64,000 bases of DNA, taken from assembly GCF_900129985.1 (NCBI RefSeq), contig NZ_FQXN01000001.1:1-64000 (forward strand), in the 5' to 3' direction. Every line of letters begins with the position of its first letter. Within the stretch, counting starts at the first letter, position 1. A model generated the notes under the pieces. It had not been told where the DNA came from, searched no databases, and saw nothing but the letters and a program-made list of their open reading frames with translations. Position numbers and translations under genes: made by a program. The stretch is from Thermosipho atlanticus DSM 15807 (GTDB lineage: Bacteria; Thermotogota; Thermotogae; Thermotogales; Fervidobacteriaceae). Below are positions 38,296 through 60,034 of the stretch, in pieces.

Positions 38296-38312
38296 CCATA
38301 TTGGAAAAATTA

Positions 38313-38642
38313 GGAGTGGGGCTATAAGCCGGATTCTGTTTACAAGCATCTATCTAGGAAATTTGTTACCAAATTTCTCTTGCGGTCTACCCGGGATATG
38401 GGCGGAGCCACCCTTTCCCTGCTCGACCTTGCTCCAGGTAGGGGTTGCCAAGCACATGGATTGCTCCATGCCTGGTGAGCTCTTACCTCACCGTTCCACC
38501 CTTACCTTTGCAGGTGGTTTTCTTTTCTATGGCCCTTTCCAGGGATCACTCCCTCCGGACGTTATCCGGTACCTCGCCCACGGAGTCCGGACTTTCCTCG
38601 ACTAATCTGGGTTCGATTAGTCGCGCTTGTGAGCCCCACTCC
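38313..38642 (-). ncRNA. rnpB: RNase P RNA (catalytic subunit)
   Basis: The minus-strand RNA begins GGAGTGGGGCT (38642 downwards) and ends AGCCCCACTCC (38313), which pair as the P1 helix. Internal hallmarks are the 5' CRI-type GAGGAAAGTCCGGACTCC, the central GGTAAGAGCTCACC (a P10/P11-type element), and the 3' CAGAATCCGGCTTAT. The length of about 330 nt is right for bacterial RNase P RNA, which processes tRNA 5' ends. It is GC-rich against its surroundings, as expected in a thermophile. Frames read across it on the plus strand are not genes. Confidence 0.97.
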
Positions 38643-55590: not shown

Positions 55591-55643
55591 AAAAAACACC
55601 CCCTTCTTGCTTTTGGCTCGCCACTTCGGGGGTGTTTTTTTTT
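55591..55643 (+). terminator. Intrinsic terminator after the EF-G-like gene
   Basis: CACCCCC (55597-55603) pairs with GGGGGTG (55628-55634) across a 24-nt loop, with As before and nine Ts after. The loop has a small GGCTCGCC inner fold. Confidence 0.82.
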
Positions 55644-55821: not shown

Positions 55822-55850
55822 TTGACAATATAGAAACTGGAGGATAAAAT
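55822..55850 (+). promoter_or_regulatory. Strong promoter of a small ORF
   Basis: TTGACA (55822-55827), a 17-bp spacer and TAAAAT (55845-55850): the best consensus promoter noticed in the window. Transcription should start near 55857, just before a ribosome-binding site. Confidence 0.7.
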
Positions 55851-55872
55851 ATAAACGTAAAGGGGGATTAAG

Positions 55873-55989
55873 ATGAAGTATAATAAGTTTTTCAAAGTAC
55901 ATAAGTATAAATTCTTTTATGTTCTTTCTTTTAGAAAGAGAGGCTTTTTACAACAAGAGAGAAGCTTAGCTTCTCTCTTTTTATTTTAA
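55873..55989 (+). CDS. Small ORF (38 codons) with an internal terminator
   Basis: ATG 55873 follows AAAGGGGG by 7 nt, and a strong promoter lies directly upstream, so translation is plausible. The peptide is basic and aromatic (eight Phe, three Tyr; core FRKRGFLQQERSLASLF) and not recognised. An intrinsic terminator (55955-55982) lies within the frame and before the stop codon TAA at 55987-55989. Terminated transcripts would therefore lack a stop codon. It may be a leader peptide of an attenuator for the downstream genes, a ribosome-rescue-type small protein, or a chance frame. Confidence 0.4.
   Translation: MKYNKFFKVHKYKFFYVLSFRKRGFLQQERSLASLFLF
55955..55982 (+). terminator. Intrinsic terminator inside the small ORF
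   Basis: GAGAGAAGC (55957-55965), loop TTA and GCTTCTCTC (55969-55977), extended by two A-T pairs and followed by Ts. An upstream AGAGAGGC (about 55937-55944) can pair with the same GCTTCTCT arm, so an alternative fold exists. Confidence 0.8.
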
Positions 55990-56018: not shown

Positions 56019-57228
56019 ATGAAAATAGCGGTTATTGGATTTGGTGCTGCTAGTATAGGTTTTTTTGAAAAATGTAAAAGATGAAGATGTAACTGTGTTT
56101 GAGGCAAATAAAGATGTGTATTCTTCCTCAATAAGTGGGATAAGAGCTGATGGAAAATTGTTTATTTCTTCTGAAATGGGTGGAGATTTGGATGAAATAC
56201 TTTTAGATACAGATTTACAAAAAGAAATTGTGGATTTTTATTGTCGAGTATCTAATACAATTCCTGAAACAGGAACCCAAGAAGTAAATGTAAATATGAA
56301 AAGAGAGTTTCATAAATATGGATTTAAATTAATTGAATCAAAGTTTTATCATTTAGGTACAGATAAATTAAAAGTTTTCTTGAAAAATATATATAATAAT
56401 TCTGTGAAAATAAAGTACATAAAAGATGGTCAGCAATATAATGAAAAATTTGAAAAAGTTTACATTGCTGTAGGAAGGAGTGGTTCAAGATTAATTGATA
56501 CTATTAGTTCAAAATATCCTGAGCTTGTACTTCAAAACAATACTGTAGATTTAGGTGTGAGATTTGAGTTACCGAATTTTGTCGTTCAAGAATTGAACAC
56601 CATGTTATATGAATTTAAAGTAAAATATCAAGCTTCAAATGGATTTCTTGTTAGAACATTTTGTAATAATCCTTCCGGATATGTTGTGACGGAAAAATAT
56701 TCTAATTTTGTAACTGTAAATGGCCATTCTTTCCATAACAAAAAATCTTCAAATACAAATTTTGCAATTCTTGTAACCCATAGGTTTACGAAACCTTTTA
56801 ATGATCCTAATGGATATGGAGAATATATTGTTAAACTAGCTAATATCTTGGCGGGAGGGGAGAAGGTAATTTTACAGACATATGGAGATTTCAAAAAAGG
56901 AAAAAGAACAAAAAAATTGTGGAACGTTTATCCAACTTTAGATTCAAATGAATATATACTTGGAGATCTTAACCTTGTTTTACTTCATAAAACGGTGAAA
57001 GCTATTACAGAATTTTTAGATCAATTAGAAAATGTAATCCCAGGAATTTCCAATCCAACACATTTGTTGTATGGTATTGAAGTTAAGTTCTACGGTAAAA
57101 AGATGGATAATAACTTAGTATCTAATCTTAAATTTATCGGTGACTGTTCTGGTTATACTAGAAGTATTGTACATGCTACAGCGCATGGAATATTAGAGTA
57201 CTTAAAACTAAAAAAAGAGTTAAATTAA
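56019..57228 (+). pseudogene. FAD-dependent dehydrogenase (COG2509-like) with an N-terminal frameshift
   Basis: From ATG 56019, after ATGGAGGTTGAG, the frame encodes KIAVIGFGAASIGF, the FAD-binding dinucleotide fold start, and then meets a run of seven Ts (56060-56066). One T fewer joins it to the long frame that begins KNVKDEDVTVFEANKD and continues 380 residues to GDCSGYTRSIVHATAHG at the end. As written, the normal frame stops at TGA within 10 codons after the run. Either a frameshift mutation, a sequencing error, or slippage on the T-run that restores expression. The family is uncharacterised flavoproteins related to HI0933. Confidence 0.75.
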
Positions 57229-57251: not shown

Positions 57252-58463
57252 ATGAAAATAGTAATTGTAGGGCTTCAGTGGGGAGATGAAGGGAAAGGAA
57301 AAGTTGTTGCTTATTTTTCGCAGTTTTTTGATAATGTGGTTAGATTTAGTGGTGGAAGTAATGCCGGGCATACAATTGAATATAATGAAGGAATAAAAAT
57401 TGTCAATCATCTTTTGCCCTCATTTTATAATGGAAAACAATTAAATTTGATTATATCAAACGGAGTATTAGTTGATTTAGAAACGTTAGTTGAAGAAATT
57501 GAGGAATTGAAAAATAAAATAGATTATTTACCGGAAATAAAGATTTCGAATTTGGCTCATGTTGTTCTTCCATTTCATAAAGTATTAGACGAGAAAATTG
57601 ATGAAGAGACACATATAGGTACTACAAAGAGAGGAATAGGACCAGCTTATGCTGACAAGATTAATAGGATTGGAATAAGACTAAAGGATTTTGAAAATAA
57701 AGATAATTTAATGAAAAAATTGAGGAATATCTCTGAGTTTTACTATAAAATGTATGGGATAAATCTAACTTTAAATTATAAATACATTATTGAGCTATAC
57801 GAAAAGATTAAACGTTATATTGTAAGTCAGATGGAGATAATAGAAGAGATAAAGGAAAGTAATGTACTGTTTGAAGGAACACAGGGTGTATTGTTAGATT
57901 TGGATATGGGGACTTATCCGTATGTTACGGGAACTAATTGTAATACTACTGGAGTTCAAAGTGGAGTAGGATATCCAGTTAAAATTGATAAATATTTAGG
58001 AGTTTTTAAAGCGTATTTAACTAGAGTCGGAAATGGGCCATTTCCAACAGAAATTTATGGTGAAGAAGCAGCGATGTTAAGAGAAAAAGGTAAAGAATTT
58101 GGGGCAACAACTGGAAGGCCTAGAAGGGTAGGCTGGTTAGATTTGATTCTATTGAAATATGCTATTAAGGTCTCAGGTGTCGAAGAGTTGGTGTTGACAA
58201 AAGGTGATATACTTAGTAAAATAACAAAAATTCCAGTATGTATAGGATATAAAATTGGAAGTAAAGTGAAGGAAAATATCACTAGTATTGATGAAATAAA
58301 AGAAGTTACACCAGTATATACATATTTGGATGGTTGGGAAACTTTAAATGATTTAAATTTTAAAAGGTTCTTGGAATTTATTGAAAATTTTGTGGATGTT
58401 AAAATTAAATACGTATCCTATGGACCAAAGGTTGACCAAATTAAGCAAATTAGGCAAAATTGA
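57252..58463 (+). CDS. purA: Adenylosuccinate synthetase
   Basis: A 403-residue GTP-dependent enzyme that condenses IMP and aspartate. QWGDEGKGK is at residues 9-17, then SGGSNAGHTIEY, TTKRGIGPAYADK, EGTQGVLLDLDMGTYPYVT (in part) and TTGRPRRVGWLD. It is some 25 residues shorter than the E. coli enzyme. ATG 57252 is chosen for GGAGGTG seven bases upstream and since homologues start at MK-I-V. It is followed by guaA and purB, giving an AMP/GMP branch cluster. Confidence 0.97.
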   Translation: MKIVIVGLQWGDEGKGKVVAYFSQFFDNVVRFSGGSNAGHTIEYNEGIKIVNHLLPSFYNGKQLNLIISNGVLVDLETLVEEIEELKNKIDYLPEIKISNLAHVVLPFHKVLDEKIDEETHIGTTKRGIGPAYADKINRIGIRLKDFENKDNLMKKLRNISEFYYKMYGINLTLNYKYIIELYEKIKRYIVSQMEIIEEIKESNVLFEGTQGVLLDLDMGTYPYVTGTNCNTTGVQSGVGYPVKIDKYLGVFKAYLTRVGNGPFPTEIYGEEAAMLREKGKEFGATTGRPRRVGWLDLILLKYAIKVSGVEELVLTKGDILSKITKIPVCIGYKIGSKVKENITSIDEIKEVTPVYTYLDGWETLNDLNFKRFLEFIENFVDVKIKYVSYGPKVDQIKQIRQN

Positions 58464-58480: not shown

Positions 58481-60034
58481 ATGTATACCATTAAAACAGT
58501 TGTTGTTATCGACTTTGGTTCACAATATACACAGTTAATTGTAAGGAGAATAAGAGAAATTGGATATTATGCCGAACTTTTATCCTGGGATGTATCGAAG
58601 GAAGAAGTGGTTGAATTAAATCCAGCTGCGATAATTTTCTCAGGTGGTCCAGCAAGTGTATTTGAAGAAGGGGCGCCATATATCCAAGATTATTTTTTTG
58701 AGCTAAATGTACCAATTCTTGGCATATGTTATGGACTACAGAGCATAATTCAGAAATTTGGTGGGAAAGTAGAAAAGTCTTCAAAAAGAGAATTTGGACG
58801 TACATTTTTAGAAATAATCAAAAAAGATCCAATTTTTGATGGTATTCCTAAAAAATCTGAGGTATGGATGAGCCATTCAGATAGAGTTGAAGAGTTGCCA
58901 GAAAATTTTTATGTTATAGCTCAGAGTGAGAATTCACCGTATGCGGTTGTAAGAAATGTGGAAGGGAACATATATGGTGTACAATTTCATCCTGAGGTTA
59001 CTCATAGTCAGTATGGGCGAAAACTGTTATCAAATTTTATTGAAAAAGTTGTAGGAATTGAGAAGAACTGGAGAATGGAAGATTTTCTTGAGAAAAAAAT
59101 TAGGGAAATAAGAGAAACAGTAGGAGAAAATAAGGTAATATTGGGACTATCTGGAGGAGTTGATTCATCTGTTCTAGCAATTTTGTTAAATAAAGCTATA
59201 GGTAATAATTTGATACCAATTTTTGTGGACACGGGACTTTTAAGATTAAACGAAAAATCTGAAGTTGTTGAAAATTTTGAGGATTTAGGTATTGACTTAG
59301 TAATAGTAGACGCTCAAGAAAAGTTTTTTGAAGTTTTAAAAGGTGTAGAAGCACCAGAAGAAAAGAGAAAAATTATAGGACATACATTTATTGAGATATT
59401 TAACGAAACTGCGAAAAAGTTACTAGAAAAACATGGTGATATTAAATTTCTTGCTCAAGGTACACTTTATCCGGATGTTATAGAAAGTAAGGTGTGCGGA
59501 AGCAAATCAGCAGCGAAAATAAAAACTCATCATAATGTAGGAGGATTACCAGAAAAATTACCGTTCAAAGTTATAGAACCTTTCCGAAATTTATTTAAAG
59601 ATGAAGTTAGACAGATAGGAAAAATTTTAAATATTCCTGAAAAGATAATTAATAGACATCCATTCCCTGGTCCAGGCCTTGCTGTAAGAATTATCGGAGA
59701 GGTAACAAAAGAATCCGTTGAAAAACTTCGAAAAGCGGATTATATATTCATTGAGGAACTGAGGAAAGAAAATTTATATGACAAGGTGTGGCAAGCATTT
59801 TCCGTATTGTTACCAATAAAAACGGTAGGAGTTATGGGGGATTATAGAAGTTATGAAAATGTAATAGCTCTTCGTGCTGTGAATAGCGAAGATGGTATGA
59901 CTGCAGATTGGGCAAAATTACCATCCGAGTTTTTAAATCAAGTGGCAAAGAGAATTATTAATGAAGTTAGTGGAATAAATAGAGTAGTATACGATATTAC
60001 TTCAAAACCTCCAGCAACAATTGAGTGGGAGTAA
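58481..60034 (+). CDS. guaA: GMP synthase (glutamine-hydrolysing)
   Basis: A 517-residue two-part enzyme. The class I glutamine amidotransferase has its nucleophile in GICYGLQSI (about residue 85) and the HPE of FHPEVTH. The ATP-pyrophosphatase domain has the P-loop LSGGVDSSV near 226, and a C-terminal dimerisation domain ends TSKPPATIEWE, which is the usual GuaA end. It aminates XMP to GMP. ATG after GGAGGTGAG. Confidence 0.98.
   Translation: MYTIKTVVVIDFGSQYTQLIVRRIREIGYYAELLSWDVSKEEVVELNPAAIIFSGGPASVFEEGAPYIQDYFFELNVPILGICYGLQSIIQKFGGKVEKSSKREFGRTFLEIIKKDPIFDGIPKKSEVWMSHSDRVEELPENFYVIAQSENSPYAVVRNVEGNIYGVQFHPEVTHSQYGRKLLSNFIEKVVGIEKNWRMEDFLEKKIREIRETVGENKVILGLSGGVDSSVLAILLNKAIGNNLIPIFVDTGLLRLNEKSEVVENFEDLGIDLVIVDAQEKFFEVLKGVEAPEEKRKIIGHTFIEIFNETAKKLLEKHGDIKFLAQGTLYPDVIESKVCGSKSAAKIKTHHNVGGLPEKLPFKVIEPFRNLFKDEVRQIGKILNIPEKIINRHPFPGPGLAVRIIGEVTKESVEKLRKADYIFIEELRKENLYDKVWQAFSVLLPIKTVGVMGDYRSYENVIALRAVNSEDGMTADWAKLPSEFLNQVAKRIINEVSGINRVVYDITSKPPATIEWE

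Follow-up and report, generated by a model that had tools for sequence, protein, structure and literature searches.

A terminator-spanning leader frame ahead of the purA-guaA operon of Thermosipho atlanticus is most likely part of a purine operon switch rather than a new ribosome-rescue gene

The analyzed window comprises 64,000 nt of Thermosipho atlanticus DSM 15807 (genome G000), and the leader studied here lies on its forward strand. The initial annotation had reported a promoter, a strong ribosome-binding site, a 38-codon frame and a terminator ahead of the TAA stop codon, all of which were found where it had placed them. The promoter (TTGACA-17-TAAAAT, 55822 to 55850) has an 11/12 match to the consensus, and transcription probably starts at G 55857, 7 nt 3′ of the −10 hexamer, a G that is invariant in four genomes. 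Since promoter-like matches are common by chance in the AT-rich surroundings (15 observed versus 13.7 expected in 3 kb), support for the promoter comes from its conservation in relatives. A Shine-Dalgarno (SD) sequence, GGGGG (55862 to 55866), is located 6 nt upstream of the ATG at 55873, which opens the 38-codon leader ORF (55873 to 55989) for the basic peptide MKYNKFFKVHKYKFFYVLSFRKRGFLQQERSLASLFLF. The ORF runs across a hairpin, termed hairpin 1 (55923 to 55943, core UCUUUCU-UUU-AGAAAGA), whose 3′ arm is an 11-nt purine run (55933 to 55943), and then across the predicted intrinsic terminator (55955 to 55986), before it ends with TAA at 55987 to 55989. The terminator, a candidate attenuator, has an 11-bp stem (55955 to 55979) with five G-C pairs and a UUA loop, followed by TTTATTTT, and its U tract finishes just upstream of the TAA. 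Its presence within the frame was as first described, but the stem is longer than the 9 bp then assigned to it and stronger, with a computed stability of −14.9 kcal/mol at 37°C and −6.9 kcal/mol at 65°C. Elsewhere in the window, a long-loop terminator-like structure (CACCCCC..GGGGGTG, 55593 to 55640) lies 3′ of an EF-G-like gene and would isolate the leader from upstream transcription, and the bacterial class A RNase P RNA on the minus strand (38309 to 38642) was the only Rfam match.

Downstream of the leader, a frameshifted gene for an FAD-dependent protein (56019 to 57228), recognized by a match to domain PF21688, is the first gene of an operon that continues on the forward strand with purA for adenylosuccinate synthetase (57252 to 58463; PF00709, 442 bits) and guaA for GMP synthetase (58481 to 60034; GATase and GMP_synt_C domains). 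The FAD gene of T. atlanticus may be decaying, possibly as a pseudogene heading the purA-guaA operon: its frame is broken near the start by a run of seven T at 56060 to 56066, where relatives have five or six, and it lacks 22 residues present in three congeners (a 66-nt in-frame deletion near 56400). A sequencing error could account for the T run, but not for the deletion.

For comparison, a DNA search provided three congeneric genomes, G001, G002 and G003 (Thermosipho sp. MAGs in GTDB). In all four genomes the order is the same: EF-G-like gene, promoter, SD or G-rich site, hairpin 1, terminator, FAD gene, purA and guaA. The leader thus stands between a promoter and nucleotide-synthesis genes, whose products make AMP and GMP, in each of them. 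The aligned leaders retain TTGACA, the 17-nt spacer, TARAAT, the G located 7 nt past the −10 hexamer, the G tract, a CUUUC..GAAAG hairpin 13 to 18 nt upstream of the terminator, and the terminator itself, whereas the region between the SD sequence and hairpin 1 shows low similarity. Read from the sequences, pair 3 of the terminator stem is G-C in three genomes and A-U in G003, and pair 11 is C-G, U-G or U-A, so that the pairing appears to be maintained via compensatory changes. The gap between the terminator and the FAD gene is only ~40 nt and holds no conserved promoter; therefore, the operon depends on read-through of the leader terminator. As transcription from the conserved promoter or from further upstream must pass this same terminator, it would act as an attenuator of the operon in all four genomes, a general statement that we make with good confidence. 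That the leader attenuates the flavoprotein-purA operon had been offered initially as an alternative, and this proposal is the best supported one, with promoter, terminator and downstream operon syntenic in the four genomes.

Leader terminators are not unique on the 449-kb contig, where nine terminator-like sites are preceded by a gap of 90 nt or more and followed by a gene in the same orientation. In a scan of the contig that found 39 intergenic terminator-like sites, an SD-led frame crossed the terminator here and at only one other place (91463), where the peptide in our judgement resembles tRNA-gene sequence. When the stretch from the start codon to the stem was shuffled by dinucleotides, 11% of the shuffles left the T. 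atlanticus frame open up to 15 nt or less from the stem and 6% left it open across the terminator, so the layout of this single genome is suggestive but not significant on its own. This frequency, the unconserved peptide and the fact that hairpin 1 is significant in none of the four leaders taken singly (p 0.06 to 0.45) would suit a simple terminator that lets a fixed share of transcripts through, or one that ends a small non-coding RNA, with no regulated switch and no functional peptide. Such an explanation is improbable in our assessment: the promoter, the +1 G, the G tract, hairpin 1 and the compensated terminator persist while the adjoining leader diverges, and their position ahead of purA-guaA is retained in four genomes.

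The reach of the frames is shared by the congeners. The SD-led frame of each of the four leaders either stops no more than 4 nt short of the stem or passes into it, the end of the stop codon lying at −4 nt (G002), +15 nt (G001), +35 nt (G000) and +39 nt (G003) relative to the stem start. The SD sequence and ATG are clear in three of the four genomes. G003 has no obvious ATG; its frame of about 35 codons depends on a weak GTG a short distance from the SD sequence, and a frame begun at the normally spaced ATT would terminate early. Frames that came as close as 15 nt to the stem, or closer, arose in 17% (G002), 17% (G001), 11% (G000) and 23% (G003) of the shuffles. The joint product, with the genomes treated as independent, is ~0.003 when only the three leaders with an evident start are counted and 0.0007 with G003 included, values that are rough because the four sequences share common ancestry.

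A terminator ahead of the stop codon had initially been read as the non-stop layout of a ribosome-rescue gene of the ArfA or BrfA kind, expressed only when trans-translation fails. T. atlanticus does resemble Bacillus subtilis BrfA and Escherichia coli ArfA in this layout and in the presence of tmRNA and SmpB, both found in the genome and needed by such backup systems; the peptide is basic, and the frame of G003 is also open through the terminator. The initial annotation had itself named stops in the orthologous frames as a refutation of this reading, and such stops were found. In G002 the stop codon ends 4 nt before the stem, and in G001 a TAG lies inside the terminator loop, so the mRNAs of both keep their stop codon. 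On these sequences, non-stop RNA would be expected from T. atlanticus and possibly G003 only; the layout is thus not kept in two of the three congeners, and the leader lacks the conservation expected of an ArfA/BrfA-like gene. The peptides predicted from the SD-proximal starts of G001 (MNFRCYHIKVIDFWFSFLLKERRDYYTKREV) and G002 (MKKNRLLNLNSTLFLFLFERKI), like that of G003, do not appear convincingly homologous to or alignable with the T. atlanticus peptide, at 78 to 85% identity of the flavoproteins among the congeners. The lack of similarity to ArfA or BrfA that had already been remarked on was borne out, as the leader peptides had no match in Pfam, NCBIfam or PDB and a search of the genome with the ArfA model was negative. 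The peptide is also only about half the size of ArfA and BrfA, which have 72 and 71 codons, respectively (PMC8012679, PMC6881298), and it belongs to the leader of a purine operon. A new rescue factor is therefore very improbable, and the feature most probably serves the purine operon as an on/off control.

What operates this switch is a separate question. In E. coli pyrBI, a hairpin lies upstream of the terminator and no obvious antiterminator is known. The Thermosipho leaders share both traits, since hairpin 1 precedes the terminator and no obvious antiterminator was seen in the four leaders by eye or in predicted folds. A classical 2:3 antiterminator was rejected, both candidate arms being purine-rich and unable to pair. 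The alternative arm at 55937 to 55944, initially proposed to compete for the terminator, is indeed complementary, but already forms part of the 3′ arm of hairpin 1. As a competitor it is weak; occupancy of the terminator by a ribosome fits better. A published comparison (PMC4824070) sets amino-acid attenuators, in which over 20 bp separate the leader gene from the terminator, apart from pyrBI, whose 135-bp leader gene contains the terminator. In pyrBI, close coupling prevents the terminator from forming (PMC5021804). With a leader gene of 117 bp, the T. atlanticus arrangement resembles pyrBI and its pyrL leader peptide as a nucleotide-synthesis operon with a short leader ORF enclosing an intrinsic terminator. 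It differs in belonging to the Thermotogae, in the purine (AMP/GMP) products, in the FAD protein gene in front and in its purine-rich stretches besides U-rich ones; translation and the NTP response are putative here, and no sequence relationship is claimed. With the trp and his attenuators it shares a leader ORF, hairpin 1 and a terminator ahead of a biosynthetic operon. We rejected this class, as on reading the sequences no run of regulatory codons and no obvious 2:3 antiterminator was seen, and the frames extend close to the hairpin or past it instead of stopping over 20 nt short of it (distance as given in PMC4824070). The frames reaching the stem, the absence of an obvious antiterminator and the frame/terminator geometry on the pyrBI side favour a ribosome as the operator.

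Purine operons are frequently under riboswitch control. The same synteny and terminator evidence would also fit an attenuator that responds to a ligand, to an RNA-binding protein or to an antitermination factor instead of a translating ribosome, the small frame being incidental, and folds predicted at 37°C provide this explanation with long-range pairings, of the 5′ end with the segment immediately upstream of the terminator in T. atlanticus and of the SD sequence with a U/C-rich arm in G002. These pairings vary between genomes and are mostly gone at 65°C, at which three of the four leaders form hairpin 1 and the terminator only. Moreover, the leader had no Rfam match, which led us to reject a riboswitch of a described class, and the sequence between the SD site and hairpin 1 is unconserved among congeners, unlike a riboswitch core. 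We regard control by such a factor as somewhat unlikely. In the predicted 65°C fold of the G002 leader (L003, 1500 to 1580), the SD region pairs with the U/C-rich arm of hairpin 1; this pairing, absent in the other three leaders, could tie the choice of hairpin to translation of the leader.

We tentatively favour a leader that controls the flavoprotein-purA-guaA operon by transcription attenuation, with ribosome coupling of the pyrBI type, a reading whose chances we judge to be nearly balanced. It builds on the conserved architecture, the synteny and the frames reaching the hairpin, and posits the coupling and a slowing signal from low ATP/GTP. Transcription would start at ~55857 and a closely following ribosome would translate the leader ORF, with transcription-translation coupling in Thermotogae as an assumption of the mechanism. 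If the polymerase ran ahead of the ribosome, the hairpin at 55955 to 55979 would form and transcription would end at ~55985, giving an RNA of ~130 nt, and the missing stop codon on this RNA would be a by-product. If the polymerase were slowed at hairpin 1, a possible pause hairpin predicted to be marginal at 75°C, at the purine run (55933 to 55943) and in the purine-rich 5′ arm of the terminator, the ribosome could catch up and cover this 5′ arm, allowing read-through into the operon. Each of the four stems is preceded by a purine run 10 to 15 nt in length (p 0.017, 0.002, 0.12 and 0.09), but these runs were picked post hoc and overlap hairpin 1, and U-rich stretches also occur in the leaders beside them. 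Low ATP/GTP as the slowing signal acting through the purine runs was proposed after the fact, and the U-rich stretches leave other nucleotides as candidates. By analogy with pyrBI, the complete chain, in which low ATP/GTP would slow the polymerase on purine-rich stretches and a ribosome on a throwaway leader peptide would obstruct the terminator and so turn on purA-guaA, is conceivable, though we consider it unlikely.

If the reading is true, translation-coupled attenuation would extend to a thermophilic lineage of the Thermotogae and to the AMP/GMP branch, a setting in which the literature searched yielded no such case. It would also call for caution, because a terminator inside a short frame, a signature for spotting ArfA/BrfA-like genes, equally marks coupled attenuators.

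Within the family, the flavoprotein is confined to this genus. In those family members outside the genus whose purA upstream regions were inspected, neither the FAD gene nor a similar leader was seen, and other genes precede purA there. The leader is therefore comparable only among congeners. In Marinitoga lauensis, the flavoprotein gene comes after a small HTH-like gene and a different terminator, and its 6.3-kb locus contains no purA; in this region (L024, 2257 to 2500) the terminator-like hairpin lies past the HTH-like gene, just upstream of the start of the flavoprotein homologue.
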